A stretch of DNA of 58,261 nucleotides, taken from the IMG/VR virus record IMGVR_UViG_3300033141_003435, positions 1 through 58,261 of that record; one strand, given 5' to 3'. The notes below the pieces were generated by a model, which was not told where the DNA came from, ran no database searches, and saw nothing but the letters and a program-made list of their open reading frames with translations. The stretch comes from a virus. How positions within the stretch are numbered: position 1 is the first letter of the stretch; each line of letters begins with the position of its first letter. Shown piece after piece: positions 3,466 to 56,879 of the stretch. A program made the translations under genes and the position numbers.

Positions 3466-4107
3466 TCAGGCACCAGACTTGTTGTCAACGACCTCCTCGG
3501 CGTCTTCCGGTGTAGCACGCACGAGATCGCACTTCTCACACTTGTAGACTTCGACCTCTTCCCAGTCATGAGCACACGCATCTACCGCTGACTGAGTGCG
3601 AGGACGCCTTGCGGCTTCCCATTCGTCGGGAAAGTCTTTCCAGTCTACCTTGGCGAAGATTTCCATGTCACGTAGCTCAGCATCCGTGAACGGGTAGCGC
3701 TCCTTGACATCTTCCTCTCCGAACTCAGTCTTGAACTCATCCACGAGCTTTGACAGCTTCAACAAGTCTGCCTCTCCACGATTCTCGTTCAAAAGCAGCA
3801 TCAACTCTTCAGCCGTGCGATCGTCTACCTCTCCAAGATTCTTCACATACAGCTTCTTCATTCCGAGCTGTTTGCAGGCTTTCCAACGATGTTCTCCGTC
3901 AATGATCTCCAGCCGATTCCGCCCGATGTCTCTGACGATCACAGGATAGAGACGGTTTCCGTAACGACGAATCGACGCTACAACAGCCTTGAAAACGTGC
4001 GGCTTTTGCTCGTTGAAATTCCATCGATTCGGGAAGACTCGATTGATGTCTACGATCTCTTCCTTTACTCGCTCGATGGACTGCTTGATTCTTCTAAGAT
4101 TCCGCAT
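3466..4107 (-). CDS. ParB/Srx-fold protein with C-terminal zinc motif (copy 2)
   Basis: About 213 residues. The ATG at 4107 is favoured because GAGGAG lies 9 bases upstream; ATG 4116 is an alternative. The N-terminal half has PNRWNFNEQ, PVIVRDIG and IIDGEHRWKA, the signature of the ParB/sulfiredoxin-like fold. A pair of Cys motifs (CAHDW and CEKC) near the C-terminus probably binds zinc. It is clearly a paralogue of the preceding gene, with the same motif order and spacing. DpdB of the bacterial 7-deazaguanine DNA system is a ParB-like partner of DpdA, so a similar role is inferred here. Confidence 0.65.
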   Translation of the reverse strand: MRNLRRIKQSIERVKEEIVDINRVFPNRWNFNEQKPHVFKAVVASIRRYGNRLYPVIVRDIGRNRLEIIDGEHRWKACKQLGMKKLYVKNLGEVDDRTAEELMLLLNENRGEADLLKLSKLVDEFKTEFGEEDVKERYPFTDAELRDMEIFAKVDWKDFPDEWEAARRPRTQSAVDACAHDWEEVEVYKCEKCDLVRATPEDAEEVVDNKSGA

Positions 4108-4691
4108 TTCTTGCATCTCCTCATTTTGACTTTCTTGAATTGATGTCTTGAGCACAAACGAGTCGACTCGGCCATCTCCTTCCACTCTTCAGGCGCTATT
4201 TCCTCGACTTCAGTTTCAGGCTCAAAGCCCTCACTCACCACGATCAACCTTTTCAACTGCTCTTCGTCATACGGAAGGACATCAAGCGGATTCTCGCCTT
4301 CCTCTTCCATTGTGTGAACAATCCTCGAAAGTGAGAGTCCCAGCTTTTCCACGTTAGCTTCACCTCGAGTTCTGTTGAGTATCATCATCAGTTCCTTCGC
4401 AAGGATGTCTGGAACCCGACCGAGATTCTTGACTGGAGTGAACTTCACCTTCAACTGAAGGAGCGCTTTCCAGCGATGCTCTCCATCAATGATCTCGTAC
4501 TTCCCAGACCCAGTTTCTCTCACAATGACTGGATAAATTTTCCCGAACTTCTTCAATGCGTTCTTCAGCGCGTTGAAAAGACGATCGCTCTGCACATTGA
4601 AGTTCCATCTGTTCGGCTTGATGTTCTTTGTCAGCACCAAAGTCTCTGGCGTTGACGCAATCCGCCTCTTCAGCTCTTCAAGCTCTTGCAT
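4065..4691 (-). CDS. ParB/Srx-fold protein with C-terminal zinc motif (copy 1)
   Basis: 208 residues, ATG behind AGGAGGAGAGA. It contains NRWNFNVQ, PVIVRETG and IIDGEHRWKALLQL in its first 100 residues and CSRHQF plus CKKCGIL at the end. These match the neighbouring copy, so the pair arose by tandem duplication and diverged. The start lies inside the end of the HIT-like gene (14-base overlap) and its end overlaps copy 2. Likely an NTP-dependent accessory factor for DpdA-mediated base exchange (inferred from location and the GEHRW motif). It could instead be a DNA-binding segregation factor. Confidence 0.65.
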   Translation of the reverse strand: MQELEELKRRIASTPETLVLTKNIKPNRWNFNVQSDRLFNALKNALKKFGKIYPVIVRETGSGKYEIIDGEHRWKALLQLKVKFTPVKNLGRVPDILAKELMMILNRTRGEANVEKLGLSLSRIVHTMEEEGENPLDVLPYDEEQLKRLIVVSEGFEPETEVEEIAPEEWKEMAESTRLCSRHQFKKVKMRRCKKCGILEESSSPSSE

Positions 4692-15225: not shown

Positions 15226-17328
15226 CTAAAGAAAGTCTGGCTCGTCGTCGGCAAGAAAGTCGTCTTCGTCGTCCAGCTCTCCCGACATTATCGCCTTCAT
15301 AATCTGCATCTCTTCCGTCTCAATTCGCTTGGGACGACTCCGCTTCGTTCCTCCCAACAACCACTCCTTCGTTTCACGCTCAAGCTTCTCCTCCAACGTC
15401 TCGGTGTCTGCGAACTCTCCTAACTGAGGGAGGTCTGCGACCCCAAGATCGAACTGCTTAGTGGCAGCGAAAACGGCGCAAGCAAGAGCGTCGCTCACAT
15501 CCTTCGACCCTCCAGGAGGGTGATCAATCTTCCCTGTCCTCAAATCTCTCTGGAGCGTCCTAAGCTCCTCCATCAAAGGTTTATAAGGATAACATTTCAG
15601 ACGCCCCTCGTAAATACACTCTTTGAGCACCAGGTAAGGGTCCGGCGAACGATCAGCCGACTGGTGTCCGACTACCTCCTGTCCGAAACGCTTACGGAGA
15701 AGTTGTTGCGACTCCCTCGAACCGTACAAGTCGTATGTGATAGAAGAAAAGCGTACTCCGCAAACGTCTCTAAACCGATGGAGTATCTCCCTGATGTACT
15801 CAAACTCGATCTCACCCTCAGAAGGAGGGTTGATTCGCAGCACCAGGTCGACAAACACGATAGGGACAACCTCCATCGTCGCTTCGTAGTCGTCTTCCTC
15901 GGAGCTGGAGACGAACTCTGACTCGTGTCTATGGTGTCCACGTCTGTGATATTTGCGAGGCACCTCTTTGACCTGCCCAACGTGCACGATCGCCACTCCC
16001 GTTGAGTCTCCTGTTGACGAAAGGTCAATGTGTGCACACCTCAAAGCCCCTGGGTGAAGCTTCATTCTCGGAATGTCGAAAGATTTCCCTTCTGGAGGCT
16101 TCTTGATGAGACGATCAAGAATGACAGCATCCAACAGTCTGTCGTACGGAATGCCCTCGGGCCAATTGTCAGAAAGAGGAGAAGGAATTTGAGACGTGAA
16201 CATCGCCACGATTCTTGAGTCGTCGGGGATGAAACGATTCAACGATCTAACGTTCTTCCCCAAAATGTCTCGAATTGCCCCCTCCATATCAACCTCGAAG
16301 TCGCGCTTGTACTCAATCGGGATGGCACAGACCTCTCCACGCTTCTTGTAATTCTCCACCTCTTCAGAGGGAATTTCTTTCGGAGGCGTATGCTGATCAC
16401 CTATAAAAAGGTAGAATTTCCGACCGCTGTATCGTGACTCAGGTTTCGTCTCCCACTCAGAATGCTCGAAAACGACAGTCTCCCTTCCGTCGGCATGTTT
16501 GGAGAGTCGCTCCAGAAAGTCGTCAGGATGTTTGGCTGAAGAATTGAGAATCAACATCCCTGGGACGCGTCCCAAGTTCTGATAACGGGACTTCATCCTC
16601 CTCCAGATGCTGTCATGCAGCTTCTTTGCCTGATCCCACTCACGTTCGGCGGGGTTTGTGATCTTCGAACTCCCCTTGACAACCTGAAAGAAGTTTGCCT
16701 CCTCAATAACGCCTCCGAAGAGGTTCTCCCCAAGAGGAGCCAGTTCGGAAGAAGACCCCGGCACAATGCTGACCATCTTCTGCGGAAAGTCGATGATGGA
16801 CTGGATGTACTTGTTCCTCGGAAAGTCCTTCTGGAAATAAGGACTCTCGTCGATCATATCTTTAATCAATTTGAAGAGGACACGTTGGGCGTGCTGGGCT
16901 GAAACAGAGAGATTCATGAAACTGATCTGAGTCATCGGGGCCAGCCCGAAGTAGGCTTGGGGAGACTTCAAGCAGCTCAGCTCGTAAGCCATGTAAGAAA
17001 TCAACAACGCAGAAAGCCACGTCTTGCCCCAACCGATAGAGCCTTTAAGGATGACCCTCATCGGACGGGGATCGACCAGTACTACACGGTAGAAGTTGTC
17101 TTTGACCCCAGGATAGGTGCGCTGCCCTACAGCTCCAAAATAGTAGGGGTCGTTCAGCCACCGTACAGGATCGACAGGTTCACGCTCATACTTATTCTCG
17201 AACCACTCTTCGTACAACTCTCGGATGCTGAGGCCGCACTTAGCTGCTACTTCATGCAAATAGCGCTCCGCCTCTATCCCGAACTCTTCCATCGAAGGCG
17301 GCGACGATAGGCGCTTCTCACGACCCAC
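15226..17328 (-). CDS. terL: terminase large subunit
   Basis: 700 residues from GTG 17328, chosen because GGAGGT lies about 8 bases upstream. The ATPase domain has Walker A GSIGWGKTWL near residues 96-105 and Walker B FGGVIEEANFF. The nuclease domain has CAHIDLSSTGDSTG, then ITYDLYGS and a DVSDALACAV motif supplying the last acidic residue. The C-terminus is a highly acidic tail. The enzyme drives DNA into the portal and cuts the concatemer. Its start is overlapped by 11 bases by an open frame leaving the repeat-rich region. Confidence 0.92.
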   Translation of the reverse strand: MGREKRLSSPPSMEEFGIEAERYLHEVAAKCGLSIRELYEEWFENKYEREPVDPVRWLNDPYYFGAVGQRTYPGVKDNFYRVVLVDPRPMRVILKGSIGWGKTWLSALLISYMAYELSCLKSPQAYFGLAPMTQISFMNLSVSAQHAQRVLFKLIKDMIDESPYFQKDFPRNKYIQSIIDFPQKMVSIVPGSSSELAPLGENLFGGVIEEANFFQVVKGSSKITNPAEREWDQAKKLHDSIWRRMKSRYQNLGRVPGMLILNSSAKHPDDFLERLSKHADGRETVVFEHSEWETKPESRYSGRKFYLFIGDQHTPPKEIPSEEVENYKKRGEVCAIPIEYKRDFEVDMEGAIRDILGKNVRSLNRFIPDDSRIVAMFTSQIPSPLSDNWPEGIPYDRLLDAVILDRLIKKPPEGKSFDIPRMKLHPGALRCAHIDLSSTGDSTGVAIVHVGQVKEVPRKYHRRGHHRHESEFVSSSEEDDYEATMEVVPIVFVDLVLRINPPSEGEIEFEYIREILHRFRDVCGVRFSSITYDLYGSRESQQLLRKRFGQEVVGHQSADRSPDPYLVLKECIYEGRLKCYPYKPLMEELRTLQRDLRTGKIDHPPGGSKDVSDALACAVFAATKQFDLGVADLPQLGEFADTETLEEKLERETKEWLLGGTKRSRPKRIETEEMQIMKAIMSGELDDEDDFLADDEPDFL

Positions 17329-17866
17329 TGTACACACCTCCCGATAAGACGCCCAACCCTCCCATGAAAGAAGGACAACTTCCACTTCCCTTCCCTACAG
17401 TAACAACAACAGCAGTAGGAAGACCGTTCTTTGCCCTCTGTAGGGCTTCATGAACAGCCTCTGCTACTGAAGAACAAATGTTTGAAATCTGAAATATTTG
17501 TGTAGTCTTCCCAGTAGAAGCAGCACGGACTCCGTACAACGAAGCAGTCAGAAAAAGCAGACACGCACGAAAAAATCGACACGCGCGAAAAAATCGACAC
17601 GACGTGATGAGGGAATAACTAGACGCCCTTAACTCGTTACGCAGATGTTTTTTATGCGAATCGACACCATAACGCTCATGAGAACTCTGCTCTAGTATGA
17701 CAGAGTTGCCCTTCGCTACATGTGCTCTCACTACTCTCATGTGAGTAGACGTTAAAAGCCACCCAAGAACACCCTCGTACAACGTCAAGCATACTGTCAG
17801 AAGTCTCTCAGAAGACTCCCGTACGTAATGCCGGAGACACCTCATCTGCCTTCCCAATAGAGTGTC

Positions 17867-17896
17867 CATACCTATATCCTTACCTATATCCATACT
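17867..17896. repeat. 12-bp tandem repeat
   Basis: CCATACCTATATCC is followed by TTACCTATATCC and a further ATAC: an imperfect CCTATATCC(A/T)TA tandem array of about 2.5 copies. It is a minor block of the large repeat region. Confidence 0.6.
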
Positions 17897-18266
17897 ACAG
17901 CCCACCGTACAACGCAGTAAGTGCCTCCTTCCGACAATACGCTCTATAAGACTATGGTCGTTCTCGACGCTCGCGTGTAGCGTGCTCGCTCGTTTCAGCG
18001 TGCTCATCTGGCAGGCCCGACGAAAACGAAGACGTGATATACGGCGTACAACGTAACTCGCGTATATACGTCTAATATATACACGTGTTATTCTCGCTAC
18101 TTCCAACACCAGAAACAACGCAAGAGTCTTCACGAGAGTCTTCACAAAGTCGTGCAGTGAGCACACACGTCCCTGCGCACGTGTATAGCGAGAACTTGTG
18201 CCCTCACTCCTCTCGCGAGTAACGAGAGCGCTCGCTTCTCTCGAGAGCATAGCGAGTTCTCGTGTA

Positions 18267-18380
18267 TAGCGAGAACATGGGAGTATAGCGAGGTCGTACG
18301 GGTTTAGCGAGAACTTGTGAGTGTAGCGAGAACTTGTGTGTGTAGCGAGAACATGCGAGAAAAGCGAGAACTTGTGAGCA
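18267..18380 (+). repeat. array of six 19-bp-spaced TAGCGAG words
   Basis: TAGCGAG-type words begin at 18267, 18286, 18305, 18324, 18343 and 18362 (the last as AAGCGAG), each exactly 19 bases after the previous one. The typical unit is TAGCGAGAACTTGTGNGTG. Regular spacing near two helical turns is typical of arrays bound by a DNA-binding protein, but could also come from slippage. Confidence 0.75.
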
Positions 18381-18556
18381 TTGTGACAACGTGCGTTGTC
18401 TCTACATACGTGTGTAGCGAGAACATGCGAGAAAAGCGAGAACTTGTGAGCATTGTGACAACGCACGTTGTCTCTACATACGTGTGTAGCGAGAACATGC
18501 GAGAAAAGCGAGAACTTGTGAGCATTGTGACAACGCACGTTGTCACAATGCTCACA
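18341..18556 (+). repeat. three tandem 72-bp repeats
   Basis: Units begin at 18341, 18413 and 18485. Each contains TGTAGCGAGAACATGCGAG, AAAGCGAGAACTTGTGAGC and ATTGTGACAACG followed by a CG-rich turn and CGTTGTC. Copies 1 and 2 differ at two positions; copy 3 diverges in its last 20 bases to form a perfect palindrome. The period is a multiple of three, which helps keep the overlapping long frame open. Confidence 0.85.
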
Positions 18557-18558
18557 AG
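18515..18558. repeat. 44-bp perfect palindrome (21-bp arms)
   Basis: The arm CTTGTGAGCATTGTGACAAC plus G is followed by CA and then its exact reverse complement. It overlaps the end of the third 72-bp repeat. As DNA it could extrude a cruciform; as RNA it would form a 21-bp hairpin. There is no T-run, so it is not a standard terminator. Confidence 0.85.
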
Positions 18559-19075
18559 TAGCGAGATCAAGCGATTTTAGCGAGTCCATACGACTCTCAC
18601 TACTCTCACGAGTAACGAGCGCACTCGCATCTCTCACGTGTGTCATAGCGAGAACTTGTGCCCTCGCTACACTCACGTGTATAGCGTGCTCGAGAGCATA
18701 GCGAGAGCACTCACTCTCACTCCACCCTTGTGTGACATAGCGATCACACAAGTCCTCGCTCCTCTCGTGTGTAGCGAGAACATGAGAGTTTAGCGAGGTC
18801 ATGCGTGTTTGGTGACAACGCTCGGTGTCACTCCTCTCGTACGTAGCGAGAGCAAGCGAGTTCGGTGTCTCCTGAAGTAGTGGCGACACCGAACTCGTGA
18901 GCGGAGCGAGAACATGCGTGTACAGCGAAAGCCCATGTAGAATACGGCCCCAAATCGCTGCTTCATACGCGCTCACTCCACTCACGAGTGCCAAAGCGAG
19001 ATCACGTGGCGCTCGCAACCCTCGTGAGTAGCGTGCGCTGGCGCTTCTCTCGCTAAAATCGCTTGATCTTGCTAC
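18559..19075. repeat. inverted copies of a 24-base word about 480 bp apart
   Basis: GCGAGATCAAGCGATTTTAG lies near 18561 and its reverse complement (CTAAAATCGCTTGATCTTGC) lies near 19050. Most other words in this region share one orientation, so an inverted copy of this length is notable. Confidence 0.65.
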
Positions 19076-19381
19076 ATGTGCGTGTAGCGCGTGCTCTCGT
19101 GTATGATGAGCGCACACGGCTCGCACAAGTGACATAGCGACAACGAGCGTTGCTTCTGAGTGGAGCGCTCTCGCGTGTAGCGAGAGCACGCGATACTTGT
19201 GCGTGTTGCGAGCACATGTGCGTGTAGCGAGCACTCTTGCTGCTCTTGTGTGACATAGCGAGATCGCTCGGTGCACACACGCGTCGTATAGCGAGATCAC
19301 TCGTTGCTCTCGACACTTGTGTGTCAAAGCGTCAACATGCGACTGAGAGCGTCTCCACAAGTTGCTCTCAGGCCCGATCTT

Positions 19382-19655
19382 AGCGAGTCCATTCATCATG
19401 TCCGACTCACGTGTGTCATTGCGTGCACACATGTCACGCTTGTGTGTCAAAGCGTCAACGTGCGTTTGTAGCGACAACGAGCGCTGCCTCGTGAGTCGTG
19501 TAGCGAGGGCACTCGCATCTCTCACGTGTCGTATAGCGAGATCACTCGTTGCTCTCAGCACTTGTGAGTGATTGCGACAACGCACGTTGCCCACAAGCGC
19601 CATCTTAGCGAGTCCATTCATCATTCTCGGCTCACGTGTGTCATTGCGTGCTCGC
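19382..19655 (+). repeat. two direct copies of a ~45-bp unit
   Basis: TTAGCGAGTCCATTCATCAT occurs near 19381 and again near 19607, each followed after a few differing bases by CTCACGTGTGTCATTGCGTG. The copies are about 227 bp apart. Confidence 0.75.
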
Positions 19656-19659
19656 TCGT

Positions 19660-20110
19660 CATGTTGTGTAACTCAGCGCTCACATGCGCGTGTGACGAGA
19701 GCGCACGAAGCGATCGACTAACTCAGCGCTCACGCACGTCGTGCTGGGCAACTCAGCGCGCTCGCGGGCTGCGTTGAGTAACTCAGCGCTCACATGCGCA
19801 GCAGCATATGCGTGATAGCGACGGCGCACGGAGACTTTTGTGAGAGACGGGCACGTCAACACAAGGGCGTCGCGTACAGCCACGAGGGTCTTCACGCTCT
19901 CTGTCACAGAAGTCTCCACGCACAACTTGCGCGCTCACCACTCACAAGGGCGTCGCGAACTCTCACTAGGGTCTCCACGCTCTCTATCACAGGAGCATCG
20001 TGCGCAATTTCGTGCGCAAAATGCGTCGTCGTACGTCGCGCAGATGACGTGCCCTTTTGTCGTCGGTGTCGACGTGCCTTGACTGACATGGCTCGACAAA
20101 CATTGTCGAG
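19660..20110 (+). repeat. AACTCAGCGCTCAC words and an 85-bp direct repeat
   Basis: AACTCAGCGCTCAC or a close variant occurs four times between 19670 and 19795. ACAAGGGCGTCGCG followed by an AGGGTCTYCACGCTCTCT block occurs at about 19860 and again about 85 bases later. These words differ from the TAGCGAG class, so the 3 kb region is a mosaic of repeat families. Confidence 0.65.
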
Positions 20111-20129
20111 TGCGTTTGCGTGCAGATAA

Positions 20130-20345
20130 ACGTCCCCGTTTCTCACACGATTCTCACGCGATTCCTCCCTCTTTTTCTCGCACAATTTCTCACGCTTTTT
20201 CTCACGCGTTTTTCTGCGCTTTTCCTCACACAATTTCTCGCGCAATCCTGCTCGTGATTTTCGCACGTTTTCTCTCCCATTTTTCACGCGTTTTTCATCG
20301 CCCTATTTCTCGTGCTTTTCACCCGATCATTTCCGCGCATTTTCT
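20130..20345 (+). repeat. pyrimidine-rich TTTTCTCACGCG array
   Basis: Irregular 11-14 bp units of the type TTTTCTCACGCG, TTTCTCGCGCAA and TTTTTCACGCG run up to the end of the terminase small subunit gene. The plus strand is strongly T/C-rich here. On the minus strand it reads as an artificial Lys/Arg/Glu peptide, which I do not accept as a gene. Confidence 0.7.
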
Positions 20346-22634: not shown

Positions 22635-22874
22635 TCATTTGTCTAAACGCTCCAAGTCTCTCGTAATGCGTTTCGCAATTCTGATCGCCTTCTCTGCCGG
22701 AATGACGTTGTACTCCGTAGCCTTCAGCACCCTGTCAATACCCCGTACTTTGATCAGCGGAACCCTTTCTCCACTGTCGCTTGTTCCGATAGCCACAACC
22801 TTGCCCCACCCAAGACAACAAGCTCGCTTATCGTCCCAAACTTGGACCTTCTCTCCCAGTTTAAGTTTGCTCAT
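22635..22874 (-). CDS. small hypothetical protein (beta-rich)
   Basis: 79 residues from ATG 22874 (GTTGGAGGTGCAA upstream); the longer frame is rejected because it extends through the preceding gene. LGEKVQVWDD and LGWGKVVAIG resemble an SH3-like small barrel. A similar start (GQRVQIWD and LLGVGTVIEI) is seen in the gene at 40836-41060, so the two may be related. Confidence 0.5.
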   Translation of the reverse strand: MSKLKLGEKVQVWDDKRACCLGWGKVVAIGTSDSGERVPLIKVRGIDRVLKATEYNVIPAEKAIRIAKRITRDLERLDK

Positions 22875-23763
22875 TTGCACCTCCAACACTCTTCTGCTTA
22901 CGATGACGAAGCAGATTCTCCAGAACGCCCTCAAGCGTCACTTTCTCCATGTGCGTCAATGCCCAAACTAGCTCCAAAGGAGTTGTCACTACCCCAAAAT
23001 GCTCCTTGAGACTTTGCTGCAGACTCTGAAGCGCACTAGCCAGACGTATCACGCTTCTCCTCCTATAATTTGCTCCAAGCCCGGCGTTACGCATCCGTTG
23101 CGCCAGAGTCTGCACCGAAATCCCAAGTTGCTTCGCAACCCTCTTCTTGTCGTAGTGTCTTGTTTGAAGCAGCATCAAAAGATGTGCTCTCTTCGCCATT
23201 CGCTCTGCTTTCTGATAGGCGCCCTTCCCTCTTCGAACGAAGTCTATCAACCCAAGCTCTTCCGTCAATTGTCGTACACGCTCCCTAGACAACTTCAACT
23301 TCTGCCCCGCTTTACTGTAGTTGAAAAGCGAAGAAGACAGAACTTTCCGAAGCATCTCCCTCCTTGTACGACGAATCACCTCTGAACGTGTGCCATAAAG
23401 CTGACGAAGCACTACATCTCGATGTACGAAGATACGAAGTGTGTCATATGACACACCAATCCTCTCTGCAATCCCATGAAGTGTGCTGCTTGACTTCACC
23501 AACTCTTGGGCAATCAAATCCCAATGTCGTTCACACTTCACCATTGCCCTTGCTCGTCTCATACTTGTCTTACGTTCTCTCGCTCTATACGCGTGAGCCG
23601 CCTCTTGATTCTGCCAAATCCAGTAATACAACGAGTTGATTGACGCTCCTGGACTCCCAAAACGTCGTACAATCTTTTCCAGAGTTACGCCCTCTTTCAA
23701 AGCCCGTACGACAGCCTCACGATGACGATCGTACGCAAGACTGCTAGTTCGTCTTCTCCCCAC
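22861..23763 (-). CDS. multi-helix-turn-helix DNA-binding protein
   Basis: 300 residues, GTG start behind GGAGGAGGAGA. At least three helix-turn-helix units are visible: VTLEKIVRRFG near residue 25, LHGIAERIGVSYDTLR near 95, and KRVAKQLGISVQTLAQRMR near 210, with similar basic linkers. The protein is very Arg/Lys-rich throughout. Repeated HTH units suggest a transcription regulator or a protein binding long repeated DNA. It lies at the end of the ubiquitin-like operon. Confidence 0.6.
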   Translation of the reverse strand: MGRRRTSSLAYDRHREAVVRALKEGVTLEKIVRRFGSPGASINSLYYWIWQNQEAAHAYRARERKTSMRRARAMVKCERHWDLIAQELVKSSSTLHGIAERIGVSYDTLRIFVHRDVVLRQLYGTRSEVIRRTRREMLRKVLSSSLFNYSKAGQKLKLSRERVRQLTEELGLIDFVRRGKGAYQKAERMAKRAHLLMLLQTRHYDKKRVAKQLGISVQTLAQRMRNAGLGANYRRRSVIRLASALQSLQQSLKEHFGVVTTPLELVWALTHMEKVTLEGVLENLLRHRKQKSVGGANEQT

Positions 23764-28751: not shown

Positions 28752-28766
28752 TTGACTCCTCCTTTC

Positions 28767-28808
28767 TTTCCATTATTTTTATTATAATTCTGCAAAATCC
28801 TTCGAAAA
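28767..28808 (-). promoter_or_regulatory. repeated promoter element, copy 1 (drives ubiquitin-like operon)
   Basis: Minus strand: TTCGAAGGATTTTGCAGAAT then TATAAT (28781-28786) and AAAAATAATGGAA. It is one of five near-identical copies in the window. The upstream half is also the end of the preceding gene (codons for FSKDFAEL and stop). Transcription would start about 20-25 bases before the modifier gene start codon. Confidence 0.65.
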
Positions 28809-29674: not shown

Positions 29675-29689
29675 CTCTTTTTTCCCTTC

Positions 29690-29730
29690 CATTATTTTTA
29701 TTATAATTCTGCAGAATCCTTCGGAAAGAA
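29690..29730 (-). promoter_or_regulatory. repeated promoter element, copy 2
   Basis: Minus strand TTTCCGAAGGATTCTGCAGA, then ATTATAATAAAAATAATGG; the -10 is at 29700-29705. It lies between a small coiled-coil gene and the gene ending at 29078. The ATG inside the element is probably not the translation start. Confidence 0.7.
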
Positions 29731-36914: not shown

Positions 36915-36926
36915 TAATGCCTCCTT

Positions 36927-36967
36927 CCATTATTTTATTATAACTCTGCGAAATCTTTCGGAAAAAA
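36927..36967 (-). promoter_or_regulatory. repeated promoter element, copy 3
   Basis: Minus strand TTTCCGAAAGATTTCGCAGA, GTTATAATAAAATAATGG and GGAGG; -10 at 36937-36942. It follows the lytic transglycosylase gene and drives the recombination gene block. Confidence 0.7.
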
Positions 36968-43945: not shown

Positions 43946-43954
43946 CTTCCTTCC

Positions 43955-43998
43955 TTCCATTATTTTTATTATAATTCTGCGAAATCTTTCGGAAATTT
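43955..43998 (-). promoter_or_regulatory. repeated promoter element, copy 4
   Basis: Minus strand TTTCCGAAAGATTTCGCAGA, ATTATAATAAAAATAATGG; -10 at 43968-43973. It precedes the DNA polymerase gene. Confidence 0.7.
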
Positions 43999-44370: not shown

Positions 44371-45733
44371 CAACTTCTCCTTCTTCCCACCTCTGCTGCA
44401 TTCGTTCGAACTCCTCCTGCGGAATCGTTCCTCCCTGTATCTCCCAAAATCTGTTTGAAGCCAAATCCTCTTTGAACGGGATGGTCACCTCACTAATGTT
44501 ATCACGATTCTTCGCCAGAAAGAATCGCCCTTCGTTGATCCTTCTCTCTCGCGTCGTACGACAGATGGCAAGAACAACGTCCGCTACCATCGCCTTCTCG
44601 AAACTCTCAGCGATGTCAAGCACCGTTATAATCGGCTTTGACAGCCCAGAACGATTCGTTTGAGATGCTGTCCAAATAGGCTTGTCCAACTCCATTGCGA
44701 GTCCTCGAAGCGTCTCGTAAATCGACCCAAGCTGATGTCGTGTCTCTGCTCTCGCATAAGCGACCTCTGGACGCATCAGATCGGCGTAGTCAACAATGAT
44801 AACATCGGGATCAAACCCTTCTCTCAAACGAAGAGTGTAAATAAAGCCTCTCAACATATCGACTGTACAACTCCGCGAAGGCCACTCCTTCACAACCAAG
44901 TCTGCGTTTCCAACAACCCTCCGAATCCTCTTCATCTTGCGTCTAACTTCGTCCTGTCTATCAAACAGTTCGTCTTTTGCCACCTTCGAAAGAGACGAAA
45001 CGTAACGAGCCTTCACTCTCTCCTTACCCAGCTCAAACGTCACATGTAGAGGTTTCTTCCCAATCCGAAGAACGTTGCACCCGATCTGTATCAATACAGC
45101 ACTTTTCCCTCTTCCCGTTGGAGCGAGCACAATCCCCAACTCTTTCCCACCAAGACCGCCTCCCAGAGCTTCGTCAAGCTTTCTAAACCCAGTTGAAATC
45201 TTCCCTTCAGAACTAGATCGAAACGACAACTGATCGATATCGCGAAGAAGAAAATCTCCCGCATCCTCCCCCCCAGCCATCATCGTCGCAATCTTGCGAA
45301 ACTGCTGTGTGACTACGGATGTGCTCACTCTCTCAATGGAAACGGCCTCTGTCTGCGCAACACGACTAAGCTCTAAAAGCTCTCTACGAAGTAAGAAGTC
45401 GTAAACACTATCGACAACATACTCTCGCTCCTCCAACGAGACACTGTAGACTTTCGTCACCTCCGCCCAGAAATACTGGTCTGGCACGTACGACTTTTCG
45501 CTATCTAGAAGACGCTGCAGCTCACTTTGTAATGTGCGTTGTGAAGGAACTCTCTTATACTCACTGAAGTGGTGCTGCACGATTCGAAAAATCAAGCGAT
45601 GAATCGGATTGTCAAAGTGCCTCTCTTGCAGAACACCGCTAAACTTCGACATCACCACCTTGTCGCGTGCAACATATCCCAAAACTGTCAACTGAAGTTC
45701 TTGAGAAAGAACTTGCTCGTTGTTCACAACCAT
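44363..45733 (-). CDS. DnaB-type replicative DNA helicase
   Basis: 456 residues, ATG after GAGGAGGACTGGGA. Residues 1-150 form the helical N-terminal domain. Residues 170-456 are the RecA-type motor: ISTGFRKLDEALGGGL, Walker A LAPTGRGKSAVLI, Walker B PDVIIVDYADLM and the WTASQTNRSG motif. It unwinds DNA at the phage fork with the primase encoded at 50 kb. Confidence 0.85.
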   Translation of the reverse strand: MVVNNEQVLSQELQLTVLGYVARDKVVMSKFSGVLQERHFDNPIHRLIFRIVQHHFSEYKRVPSQRTLQSELQRLLDSEKSYVPDQYFWAEVTKVYSVSLEEREYVVDSVYDFLLRRELLELSRVAQTEAVSIERVSTSVVTQQFRKIATMMAGGEDAGDFLLRDIDQLSFRSSSEGKISTGFRKLDEALGGGLGGKELGIVLAPTGRGKSAVLIQIGCNVLRIGKKPLHVTFELGKERVKARYVSSLSKVAKDELFDRQDEVRRKMKRIRRVVGNADLVVKEWPSRSCTVDMLRGFIYTLRLREGFDPDVIIVDYADLMRPEVAYARAETRHQLGSIYETLRGLAMELDKPIWTASQTNRSGLSKPIITVLDIAESFEKAMVADVVLAICRTTRERRINEGRFFLAKNRDNISEVTIPFKEDLASNRFWEIQGGTIPQEEFERMQQRWEEGEVDV

Positions 45734-46566
45734 TCCCAGTCCTCCTCATACTCATCTGTCAGATGAGCAAAATCGTGCTCCCACATTCTCCTCTGCTCTT
45801 CCTTACACTCTTGTCGTGTTTGCATCACTCGCTTCCTCCACTTCTCATTCCGAAGTCGTTTTAACGGCTCTCTCGTCATCAAGTTCCACACTTCGAAAAC
45901 ATCGTGCATCTCTCTCGGGTTGTAGATATGAACGTCCCGAAAGTTTCGCATTTTCGGCAGCACCTTTACAACAGGAGAAGTCGCCAAGAAATAGTCTGTG
46001 AACACGCGTCCCCTCTCCGACACAAGCACAACCAGCAAATCAAGCCAGCCCCACCCGCCGCATTGATTCTGTGCGTACAACCGATGGTCGTGTACAACAC
46101 TCACACCTTCATAGAAGCATCCCCTTCCTTCAAGCGAGAAATGCTGCTTCACATTCAAGAACGATATCGTCTGCAAGTACTCCGCAATCGTCATACGCGT
46201 ACCAGCAACATTTGCTCGAAGCTCCTTCCACCGAATCTCAAAAATCTCACGCGCCCTGTCAGTTCCCAGCCAGTTCAATGGAGGATATGGCCATCCCGCG
46301 TCATGCTCTTCAGATACAGGTTCGCGAAACATCACTTCGAAGTACGTCCGCTCATCAATGTTGAGCTTCTTACAATTCTCAACAATTTTGTTGAACTTCG
46401 TACGCAATTTTGGACTTCTCACGTTGTACCTACAAGAGACTCCTGTCACGGCAGAAACGAAAGCTCCATACAGTTGTGCCGCCGCTTTCACCCTTTGAGT
46501 TGCAGGAGATGATCGCCAGCTACTAAGCTCACGAAGCGTCTGTTTGTACTTTTCCCTCTTGTTCAC
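45724..46566 (-). CDS. hypothetical protein, possible helicase-associated factor
   Basis: 280 residues, GTG start. Rich in Trp, Tyr and Arg, with a helical N-terminus and a conserved-looking AGWPYPPLNWLGTDRAREIF. No Walker motif is present, so it is not a DnaC-type ATPase loader. Overlap with the helicase gene by 10 bases suggests co-function. Could be a loader or a DNA-binding protein. Confidence 0.5.
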   Translation of the reverse strand: MNKREKYKQTLRELSSWRSSPATQRVKAAAQLYGAFVSAVTGVSCRYNVRSPKLRTKFNKIVENCKKLNIDERTYFEVMFREPVSEEHDAGWPYPPLNWLGTDRAREIFEIRWKELRANVAGTRMTIAEYLQTISFLNVKQHFSLEGRGCFYEGVSVVHDHRLYAQNQCGGWGWLDLLVVLVSERGRVFTDYFLATSPVVKVLPKMRNFRDVHIYNPREMHDVFEVWNLMTREPLKRLRNEKWRKRVMQTRQECKEEQRRMWEHDFAHLTDEYEEDWEWL

Positions 46567-47064: not shown

Positions 47065-47182
47065 TTGTACCCTCTTTAGACTCTTGTTCTAGAGAACATG
47101 TCAGTAACTCATCTCTTAAAAGAGATGAGTTACTGACACGCCCTGCGGGCGTCAACTGAGATAGGAACTCAAACGGTGACAT
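47057..47182 (-). CDS. possible 41-residue coupled ORF after the UvsW-like gene
   Basis: ATG 47182 lies inside the end of the helicase gene with GAGGT 5 bases upstream; its TAA overlaps the start of the next small frame. It contains the 18-bp inverted repeat at 47100-47137 within its coding part (VSNSSLLRDELL). It may be a coupling peptide or not translated at all. Confidence 0.3.
   Translation of the reverse strand: MSPFEFLSQLTPAGRVSNSSLLRDELLTCSLEQESKEGTSV
47085..47152. repeat. cluster of perfect palindromes behind the UvsW-like gene
   Basis: TGTTCT-AG-AGAACA lies at 47085-47098. GTCAGTAACTCATCTCTT, AA, and its exact complement lie at 47100-47137 (18-bp arms). ACGCCC-TGC-GGGCGT lies at 47138-47152. 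None is followed by a T-run on either strand. They may be RNA-processing hairpins, protein sites or recombination targets. A CCCTCTTTAGAC word is repeated just beside them. Confidence 0.7.
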
Positions 47183-49541
47183 GTTGTACCTCGAACCCCT
47201 GCTGTTCATACACGCTGATCCTTCTACGTGCATGGCTCGCAAGATACTTATTCCCGACATCGAGAAAGTCGTAAATCTTCACAACATTGTCTCCTGTCGT
47301 CTTGCGCCTCATCCCTCTTCCAACACGCTGCAGAAGCTTTATCTGTGACTTTCCTCCACCAGCCAAAACGAGCACTCGTATTTCCGGCACGTCCATACCC
47401 TCGTCGAAAATGGGCGTCGCAACAATTGCACCAACCCGTCCCCGACGTAAATCCTTGAGCGCCTTCATCCTCTCACTTACATCCACACCTCCATGTAGAA
47501 GTCTCACTCGTCGTACTCCAGCATCAGTTTCACTCAGAGTCCAAAAAATACTGGTCTGATGCTTGACCGTATTTGTCAGAACAAGTGTCGACTCTCCTCT
47601 CTTCATAGCTTCGCTTACAATCTTCGCTATCAGCAAATTTCGATCGAAGTTTGTCTCGATTCCCAACCGATAAGCGGCGTGGTACGTTTTGCGCTCCAAG
47701 TCAGTGCTTATCGTACGATTCTCGACTACGTATATGATCGGCTTGGCTGAAATTCCTCGCTCAATCAGGTCTGCATTTGTGATGCTCCCGACAACGCCTC
47801 CCGTCTGTCCGATAAGCTGTAGATTGCTGATTGCGTCTCTCATAACTGGCGTTGCACTCATCCCATACCTGAAGTAAGCGTTACAACGTCTGGCGATAAA
47901 CAGCCAGGACTGGGATGTCAAGTGATGACAGTTGTGTACTACAATTCCATTCGCAATGAAAAGTCTATCTTCGTCATCCAACTCTATATCGTAAAGTTCT
48001 CTCTCACCGAGTGAAATCACCTCTCTAATCTTCTCCTCCTTGAACTTCCCTCTTCTGTTGTAGCGAGTTTTTCGCGAAAACTGCTTTCGCTTCAGCTCAA
48101 AGCCGAACAAAGAGTTGAACGCGTGTACGTATTCACCGTAGATTGCAAGTCTCCATCTATCACGGTGAGGCGCTCGTCGCCTATAGCGATACACTGTATT
48201 CCACACACCATAAACTTTCAACATGTCAGATAATTGACGAACGCACTTCTCAGATGTCATATCAACACAAATTCTCCTATTGTCGGGGCTGTGCCCCTCC
48301 GCATCGAACAGCCCTTTTATCACTCCAACACTGCATTTTTCATACAGCTCTTTGGGAATCTCGACTGTCTCTGTTTTTCTCCCTCTAGGAATGTCGTACT
48401 TCTCCTCAAGGCGTCTGGCGTCTTCTCGTTCAAGAGCGAAGATGGTATCGCCTCGAGCGTTTGTGTATTCTCTCATAGCACAGCGATGTCTTCTAAAGAT
48501 TTCTCTAATTTCGTCTACATCCTTCCTAAATGCGAACTTGATGTACCCACGATCGTTCGTCCCATCGCCCAATATCCAGCCGAGCATATATTCGTCCTCA
48601 TCGTAAGGGAGCTTTCTCATTAGATGCTTCAAAACCAACAGTCTGTCGACCTGACTAATCGGCTTAAGCGTTATCCCCTTTCCACTCCAAAACGTTGGCA
48701 CAATGTGATTGGCGGAAGCAATCAAATAACTGTTCTCTCCAGACAAAACATACTTGAAAGCGGGCGCTTTCGTCTTCCATTTTCTCTTGACCCTCGCTAC
48801 TCCATCAGGAGTTAAAACTGTGTCTCCCACACGAAGCTCTCGCAGCAACACCATCCCGTTTGGAGTAGCTATCTGAGTGTCTCCGTCCAGACATTCGTCC
48901 AGGAACAAACAGTCAACATTCTCCCACAGATACTCCCTGACTCTCTCACTTTTTGACTTCAATCTTTGATACAGTGTAGGAATCATCCCGACCGTAATCT
49001 TCTTCGGCTCCCAACGATCAGCGAAGATTACGCCGACTTCACACCCCAACCTGTTCTCAAGTCGCTCTCTTGTCTGCTCTGCTAAGTTTTGAAGGTGTGT
49101 CAGGAACAGCGTACGACACTGGAGGACGCTGATTATGCCCGCCGCAAGCTCCGTCTTTCCCGAGTTAGTGGGAGCCATCAACACACATCGCTTCCGCTTC
49201 AATCCCTCTCGTATCATCTCCAACTGATAGTCTCGAAGCTCGATCCCCCGCAACTGCGGCAACGCATCTTCACTAACTTCAGCGGGCTGTCTTCGTGCAT
49301 CAACAATCAAACACTTCTCTCTAAGCTTCGGGGGGAGAATGTCAATTAAGCCCGACGGAAACGTCATGCGATAGAGATTCAAAAATGAGTAAGTTCCGTC
49401 CCATCTCCCAGAACGAAACGAGGGCATCCAGAATCGTCCAGGAACGACAAAAGTCAAAGCTTTCTTCAACGCCAGTCTCTCGACGTTCGTATCGACGTGA
49501 GTGACCTGAGCTTTAAGGTTACCTAATTGAATCTTAATCAA
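47169..49541 (-). CDS. UvsW-like SF2 DNA helicase interrupted by an intein
   Basis: 790 residues, TTG start after GGAGAGG. Extein: an N-terminal DNA-binding part, LRDYQLEMIREGL, Walker A LMAPTNSGKTELA, then the DECH box split by the intein (LFLDE / CHHLTSQSW), YGMSATPVM (motif III), GAIVATPIFDEGMDVP (motif V) and LLQRVGRGMRRK (motif VI). After splicing the helicase is about 469 residues, close to phage UvsW/XPB-like branch-migration enzymes. It is the first gene after a strong sigma70-like promoter. Confidence 0.85.
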   Translation of the reverse strand: MIKIQLGNLKAQVTHVDTNVERLALKKALTFVVPGRFWMPSFRSGRWDGTYSFLNLYRMTFPSGLIDILPPKLREKCLIVDARRQPAEVSEDALPQLRGIELRDYQLEMIREGLKRKRCVLMAPTNSGKTELAAGIISVLQCRTLFLTHLQNLAEQTRERLENRLGCEVGVIFADRWEPKKITVGMIPTLYQRLKSKSERVREYLWENVDCLFLDECLDGDTQIATPNGMVLLRELRVGDTVLTPDGVARVKRKWKTKAPAFKYVLSGENSYLIASANHIVPTFWSGKGITLKPISQVDRLLVLKHLMRKLPYDEDEYMLGWILGDGTNDRGYIKFAFRKDVDEIREIFRRHRCAMREYTNARGDTIFALEREDARRLEEKYDIPRGRKTETVEIPKELYEKCSVGVIKGLFDAEGHSPDNRRICVDMTSEKCVRQLSDMLKVYGVWNTVYRYRRRAPHRDRWRLAIYGEYVHAFNSLFGFELKRKQFSRKTRYNRRGKFKEEKIREVISLGERELYDIELDDEDRLFIANGIVVHNCHHLTSQSWLFIARRCNAYFRYGMSATPVMRDAISNLQLIGQTGGVVGSITNADLIERGISAKPIIYVVENRTISTDLERKTYHAAYRLGIETNFDRNLLIAKIVSEAMKRGESTLVLTNTVKHQTSIFWTLSETDAGVRRVRLLHGGVDVSERMKALKDLRRGRVGAIVATPIFDEGMDVPEIRVLVLAGGGKSQIKLLQRVGRGMRRKTTGDNVVKIYDFLDVGNKYLASHARRRISVYEQQGFEVQHVTV
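47931..48893 (-). other. intein with LAGLIDADG-type homing endonuclease in the DECH motif
   Basis: Residues 217-537 of the helicase frame (321 aa). It begins CLDGDTQIATPNG (Cys1, block A) and ends NGIVVHN followed by Cys+1, the standard His-Asn/Cys junction. Two LAGLIDADG-like motifs, YMLGWILGDGT and GVIKGLFDAEGH, indicate an endonuclease domain with acidic residues kept. The insertion lies exactly in the Walker B/DECH box of the helicase, a favoured conserved target. Confidence 0.88.
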
Positions 49542-49578
49542 CTTTGCCTCTCCGTCAACCCTTGTTCCTTTTTATTTT

Positions 49579-49607
49579 ATTATAATAAATGCCCTGTAGA
49601 AAATCAA
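49579..49607 (-). promoter_or_regulatory. sigma70-type promoter of the UvsW-like gene
   Basis: Minus strand TTGATT (49602-49607), 17-base spacer and TATAAT (49579-49584). It lies about 35 bases before the TTG start. It differs from the five-copy element upstream of the -10. Confidence 0.7.
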
Positions 49608-49678
49608 GTAAATTTTTTGTTTTCAACAACTTAGCTCTCTCTCTCTCTGCGCACTCGACATTTGGAGCTCGCGGTCAA

Positions 49679-49919
49679 CAAGTTCAAGCCGTAAGCTTTG
49701 CAAGTTCAAGCCGTAAGCTTTGCGAGTGCAAGCCGTAAGCTTTGCAAGTTCAAGCCGTAAGCTTTGCAAGTTACAAAACCGCATTTTGCAGAACGAGGCC
49801 ATAAGAGCGACAACGTGCGTCGTAAGCTTTGCAAGTTCAAGCCGTAAGCTTTGCAAGTTCAAGTCGTAAGCTTTGCGAGTGCAAGCCGTAAGCTTTGCAA
49901 GTTCAAGCCGTAAGCTTTG
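49679..49919 (+). repeat. nine 22-bp iteron-like repeats (candidate replication origin)
   Basis: Unit CAAGTTCAAGCCGTAAGCTT plus TG. Copies start at 49679, 49701, 49723, 49745, then after a 43-base break at 49810, 49832, 49854, 49876 and 49898. Copies 3 and 8 read CGAGTG at the start, so a four-unit block (F, F, variant, F) is duplicated. They lie between primase and helicase genes, a common origin position. The rest of the 49542-50016 gap shows no gene. Confidence 0.85.
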
Positions 49920-50016
49920 CAAGTTCAATGTTGAATGTTGTACCGAGCGTTTGATTTTTTCGACGCGACGTATGGGACCAACTTTCAGTGTTTGGTTTTT
50001 TGATGGTCGTTGTGCG

Positions 50017-50883
50017 CTACGAAGTTGAACCAACTTTTAGCTTCCTCACAGCTTCTTCTCGCTCTTCCTTTGGGAGACGCAGCGCGTCTCCCCAGTCTTT
50101 GCACTCAGGCGGCGGAGTTTGAATCTCCGTCTTCACGACCCAGCGCAGAAGATCGTAAATTCTTAAAGCTTCCTCACTCGCATCTCTATCGAGTGCGACT
50201 ATCACTTTCGATGGAACGAGGTTGAGAATCTTGCGAAGTTGAGCATTCGTGGCTCTCTTTCCCAACAACGCGACTCCACCAAGAGCAATCGCGTCAAACA
50301 CCCCTTCGCATATTGCAACAACCGCGCCACTCTTCCCTCTGAATCTGTCGATCCCGTAAACGACTTCTGTCTTCGGAAGCAGCCCCTCTTCTCTCTTCGA
50401 CGGATTCCTCCACTTAGGGCCGACTCCCTCTAGCCTTCTCCCGACGTAGTACACAACTCTTTGATTTTCGTAGCAAGGAAAGATCACTCTGTTGGACCAG
50501 TGCGGACTCCACACTGCGTTGGAAACGCTGATGTCGTTGCGTGACAACCCGCGAAACTCAAGATACGCCACCGCCTTCGCCCTCTCCTCTCGATGGACAC
50601 TAGACGAAGAGAGCAACGAAACAGCTGACGCCAAAATACTGGGACGACTTCTCTCTATGGGCTTCACTGTTCGCTCGATGTAGGCAGCTATCTCTTCAAA
50701 CTGTACGGCACGAACGACCGCAGGAAAGTCACGTTTTAGCCTTTCCACCGAACCTGCGGCGTCGCACAACTTGCAGTGAAAGACTTTGTGTCTGAGGTTG
50801 ATATAGAGATGCTTGTGGTGCCATCCAGACTTATCCCCGCAGTAAGGGCACGCAACGACAACCTCGTCTCCGTATCTCTTCAT
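50017..50883 (-). CDS. DnaG-type DNA primase
   Basis: 288 residues, ATG start. Residues 10-45 form a zinc-binding domain (CPYCGDKSG and HCKLCDAAG). The TOPRIM core has VVAICEGVFDAIAL and VIVALDRDAS, giving the catalytic Glu and Asp residues. It is short like T7- or phage-type primases, with no helicase domain. The helicase gene lies 5 kb downstream. Confidence 0.85.
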   Translation of the reverse strand: MKRYGDEVVVACPYCGDKSGWHHKHLYINLRHKVFHCKLCDAAGSVERLKRDFPAVVRAVQFEEIAAYIERTVKPIERSRPSILASAVSLLSSSSVHREERAKAVAYLEFRGLSRNDISVSNAVWSPHWSNRVIFPCYENQRVVYYVGRRLEGVGPKWRNPSKREEGLLPKTEVVYGIDRFRGKSGAVVAICEGVFDAIALGGVALLGKRATNAQLRKILNLVPSKVIVALDRDASEEALRIYDLLRWVVKTEIQTPPPECKDWGDALRLPKEEREEAVRKLKVGSTS

Positions 50884-56784: not shown

Positions 56785-56830
56785 CCTCCATTATTTTTAT
56801 TATAAAAGTCAGAACTCCTTCGGAAAAAGT
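56785..56830 (-). promoter_or_regulatory. repeated promoter element, copy 5 (variant)
   Basis: Minus strand TTTTTCCGAAGGAGTTCTGA, then TTTTATAATAAAAATAATGG; -10 at 56799-56804. The middle part differs from the other four copies, but the TTTCCGAAGGA box, the -10 and the downstream AAAAATAATGG are kept. Confidence 0.6.
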
Positions 56831-56879
56831 GAGATAGACGTGTGCCCCAGACTCAGAAAAGGCTTTGTGCACGACTACA

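Follow-up and report, generated by a model that had tools for sequence, protein, structure and literature searches.

An array of 22-bp direct repeats between the primase and helicase genes of an uncultivated phage, a plausible iteron-type origin of replication

Is an array of 22-bp direct repeats lying between two replication genes of a phage its origin of replication? The question was addressed for a virus record of 58,261 bp (IMG/VR IMGVR_UViG_3300033141_003435), which was analysed over its full length and is termed the window. The original prediction had placed nine repeat units, in two similar blocks, at 49679-49919 and had considered them a plausible phage origin. The reading preferred here, tentatively and at a probability of roughly 0.45, is that the repeats are bound by a sequence-specific protein, probably one that the phage encodes, and most likely form an iteron-type replication origin. 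This reading is plausible and partly supported, and a regulatory function of the array is nearly as likely. The locus comprises the following elements.

47169-49541, minus strand: UvsW/XPB-like SF2 helicase gene, 790 aa, with an intein (residues 217-536) inserted at the DE|CHH motif
49542-50016: non-coding gap of 475 bp between the primase and helicase genes, holding array and promoter
49579-49607, minus strand: sigma70-like promoter, TTGATT-N17-TATAAT, directed into the helicase gene and lying in the AT-rich stretch 49570-49630
49679-49772, plus strand: block 1, four 22-bp units, the third being the variant CGAGTG..., plus CAAGTT
49773-49818: spacer of 46 bp between the blocks, containing GACAACGTGCGT
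49819-49831, plus strand: truncated unit of 13 nt preceding block 2
49832-49928, plus strand: block 2, four 22-bp units, the third being the variant of block 1 and the second having one extra change, plus CAAGTTCAA
50017-50883, minus strand: DnaG-type primase gene, 288 aa

Structure of the array and of its gap

Eight full units with the sequence CAAGTTCAAGCCGTAAGCTTTG (starting at 49679, 49701, 49723, 49745, 49832, 49854, 49876 and 49898) and one partial unit were found at 49679-49928, all in the same orientation and with a period of 22 bp within the blocks. Five of the eight full units were perfect, those at 49723 and 49876 carried an identical two-base change (CGAGTG...), and the unit at 49854 differed at one position. 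The predicted count of nine held for the eight full units, but the ninth was only a 5'-truncated copy of 13 nt (GTCGTAAGCTTTG). In a self-comparison over 66 bp, the best match was 62 positions, versus 34-36 in ten shuffled windows; this self-similarity is far beyond chance and confirms the repeat array. Iteron origins are characterized by direct repeats in tandem, about 17-22 bp long, with a single orientation and helical phasing, and the array has all of these.

The block pair 49679-49772 and 49832-49925 (94 bp each, offset 153 bp) was 99% identical, and the two-base variant was the third unit in both, just as had been claimed. Since the blocks are nearly identical and share this variant in the same place, they are best read as the product of a recent block duplication. 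The 46-bp spacer might consist of decayed units (P about 0.04-0.06); its GACAACGTGCGT was present again at 18385-18400. No further copy of the unit with up to six mismatches occurred elsewhere in the window, and sites with 7 or 8 mismatches were present at counts near expectation. Searches for the iterons in viral contigs, and in plasmid and phage records, matched no array; a search of genome contigs returned only five single matches and no array, and these were taken as chance.

Not counting the left end, where the record is cut, the 475-bp gap was the second-longest non-coding stretch, after a 2.9-kb gap at the terminase genes, and it was non-coding by codon statistics. A 136-aa minus-strand frame (49623-50033) stays open across both blocks, because the third-unit variant removes an in-frame TGA in each of them and the offset of 153 is a multiple of three. 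That this frame encodes a repetitive protein is nevertheless scarcely credible: its codon score was -0.02, where coding windows scored 0.19 +/- 0.05 and wrong frames -0.08 +/- 0.05; the other two minus-strand frames scored about the same, and no family match was obtained. A coding repeat was rejected, the codon usage being unlike that of the genome's genes. A structured RNA (folding z +1.16 as RNA and +0.40 as DNA against shuffles, no Rfam match) and tRNA genes were rejected as well.

The adjacent promoter and possible control of the helicase gene

The array is located upstream of the sigma70-like promoter, at distances of about 70 to 320 bp from the -35 hexamer, and overlaps neither hexamer. 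Its predicted placement between the primase and helicase genes and beside an AT-rich promoter was correct. Among 60-bp stretches of the window, 49570-49630 ranks second in AT content. It is itself a canonical promoter and therefore not independent evidence for an unwinding element, for which its support is ambiguous. A 44-bp motif with the consensus CCGAAgGATTtyGCAGAATTATAATAAAAATAATGGAA was found on the minus strand in five copies before genes (28764-28808, 29685-29727, 36922-36964, 43952-43995 and 56787-56831) and probably represents a phage-specific promoter class. The helicase promoter has only the -10 region TTATAATAAAATAA in common with this motif and differs upstream of the -10.

The array may be an upstream regulatory region serving the helicase promoter only, at which a phage or host transcription factor would activate or repress and which would have no role as an origin; this reading comes a close second to the origin. 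The sole nearby downstream element is the canonical promoter, which is directed into the helicase operon, and the phage encodes proteins with multiple helix-turn-helix (HTH) domains. In relatives the helicase gene abuts the primase gene without a promoter gap, so promoter and array seem to have arrived together. However, a distance of about 70-320 bp from the -35 hexamer without hexamer overlap is unusual for an operator, although action at a distance is possible, and there were no further unit sites at other promoters. Neither the promoter-contact placement nor the copies at co-regulated promoters that mark an operator or enhancer array were found.

One multi-HTH protein is encoded at 22861-23763 (minus strand); it is basic, has 300 aa and several predicted HTH domains, and searches of phage records and viral contigs found no relative of it. 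Its structure model (pLDDT 50) was too poor for use, and naming it as the initiator would be only a guess. A site for partition (centromere) or for another protein assembly, and not an origin, is very improbable. Direct-repeat arrays can act as centromeres and a protein with a ParB-like domain is encoded at 3466-4185, but no ParA was present among the proteins scanned, the ParB-like gene is 46 kb off and adjoins the portal gene, and phage ParB-like domains are often nucleases or methyltransferase companions.

Replication genes, relatives and nucleotide skew

The window encodes a T4/SPO1-like replication and recombination set consisting of the DnaG-type primase, the UvsW/XPB-like helicase, a DnaB-like helicase, a ligase, a PolA polymerase with a UDG domain, a RecA-like recombinase, a UvsY-like mediator, SSB and SbcCD. 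A T4-like portal, terminase genes and deazapurine/queuosine-type genes are also encoded, and the great majority of the genes are on the minus strand. A search with the ligase found no relatives. For the terminase large subunit (15226-17385, minus strand), 533 residues aligned to 315 family profile positions, which hints at an inserted segment of about 200 aa. The helicase intein is of the LAGLIDADG type (320 aa, 47934-48893, minus strand); contig L125 of a 99.6% identical virus (IMGVR_UViG_3300033150_001595) carries the helicase gene without it, and the intein is thus polymorphic for presence and absence.

If the array is an origin, copies of the initiator would occupy the eight or nine sites, which share one orientation and are about two helical turns apart, so all on one face of the DNA, and the bound protein would wrap the DNA. 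Wrapping, together with transcription from the adjacent promoter, would help to open the stretch 49570-49630, at which the DnaB-like helicase and the primase encoded nearby would be loaded. The spacing, said earlier to fit initiator binding, was confirmed together with the common orientation, but no cognate initiator was recognised in the window by family or solved-structure searches. A conserved 280-aa protein encoded beside DnaB, at 45724-46566, gave no family match and a low-confidence fold (pLDDT 46, model too poor for use). DnaA boxes were absent from the window; such boxes are dispensable for some phage origins.

Several observations speak for an origin. The regular 22-bp repeats of one orientation are unique to one place in the genome, they lie amid the genes for primase, DnaB-like helicase, PolA polymerase, RecA-like recombinase and SSB, and the gap, with its rank in length, adjoins a stretch of similar rank in AT content. 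Against it stand the lack of DnaA boxes and of a recognised initiator, a flat G/C skew at the array and the conserved primase-helicase order of relatives that have neither gap nor array; moreover, by analogy, T4-like phages can initiate replication without iterons. The proposal of a plausible phage origin was therefore upheld by the anatomy but not by skew, DnaA boxes, initiator or relatives.

In L009 and L010 the primase was 33% and the helicase 45-47% identical to those of the window, and in L104 the helicase was 46% identical. In all three, the primase and helicase genes overlap or abut, and both gap and array are absent; a scan of 99.9 kb of the 100-kb L104 genome revealed no array comparable in period and quality. 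Because three distinct relatives share this arrangement, the cassette, with the helicase gene's own promoter as part of it, resembles a lineage-specific insertion and was seemingly gained in this lineage. The 99.6% identical virus is represented by two contigs, neither covering the array: L125 stops within the helicase gene, the sister contig stops at the 18-kb repeats, and the within-species comparison therefore does not include the array region. Tandem repeats near the primases of the distant phages L021 and L052 were rejected as mainly coding or low-complexity.

Absence from relatives would also fit a neutral expansion, in which slippage or recombination in this recombination-proficient phage multiplied a 22-bp sequence within inserted non-coding DNA and left a functionless array. 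The almost identical units and the 99% identity of the blocks indicate that any expansion was recent, and the same phage has a second repeat-rich non-coding region at 17.4-20.3 kb. Nevertheless, such an expansion is unlikely, as chance is disfavoured by a 0.5-kb insertion placed exactly between two replication genes, with a strong promoter, in a tightly packed genome. Less probable still is a recent origin or control cassette of one lineage that is bound by the multi-HTH protein, replaces or supplements an ancestral origin and is maybe shared with the 2.9-kb repeat region. The multi-HTH protein, like the cassette, has no counterpart in the relatives.

GC skew had been proposed as a check of the origin, and the result did not bear it out. 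At four-fold degenerate sites, no G/C-skew change was detected at the array (P 0.93), and the best change point, the only clear shift, was near 22 kb (permutation P 0.005). T/A skew had a small shift near 50-52 kb (P about 0.02, uncorrected). Skew thus lends the array no support as the main origin over the long term, although such signals are blurred by effects of gene modules and by recombination-dependent replication.

The four-fold G/C-skew shift is close to the 2.9-kb repeat-rich non-coding region (17386-20326), which separates the genes for the large and small terminase subunits. This region contains 13 copies of AGCGAGAAC, all on the same strand, periods of 19 bp and 72 bp, and a 46-bp palindrome at 18514 (22-bp arms, 2-bp centre). 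It is missing from the relative G007, and contig G009 of the 99.6% variant breaks inside it.

Comparison with known iteron systems

If it is an origin, the array would give a precise start site for an uncultivated phage group, would suggest that a T4/SPO1-like replication module can acquire an iteron origin not present in its relatives, and would bear on what the oriE iterons of T4 do. If it serves the promoter only, it is an ordinary regulatory feature.

Among described systems, T4 oriE comes closest. It combines evenly spaced direct repeats with an early-mode, not a middle-mode, promoter, and the role of its iterons is unproven (PMC3016281). Evenly spaced direct repeats and a myovirus-type replication system are common to both, as is an early-mode promoter without the phage middle-promoter motif, which in the array is recognised by sequence only; by analogy, this pairing would favour an origin. 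In contrast, the T4 units are 12 nt long and those of the array 22 bp, and the T4 iterons recur at syntenic regions of relatives whereas no repeats are kept at the syntenic place in L009, L010 and L104. Furthermore, origin activity is mapped in T4 and predicted for the array.

The iterons of phage lambda sit inside the initiator gene O. There are four of them, 19 bp each and bound by O, and together with transcriptional activation from nearby they can fire the origin (PMC3985674), a precedent that would likewise favour an origin at the array. Both systems have tandem iterons of similar size, an AT-rich flank and a nearby promoter, but the array lies between genes, and the window has no recognisable O-like initiator. 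Iteron plasmid origins (R6K gamma, RK2 and others) consist of same-orientation repeats with a period of about 22 bp beside an AT-rich region. The array shares this arrangement, but no Rep gene, DnaA box or plasmid match was found. Taken together, the array is a real feature, and an origin function is plausible for it.
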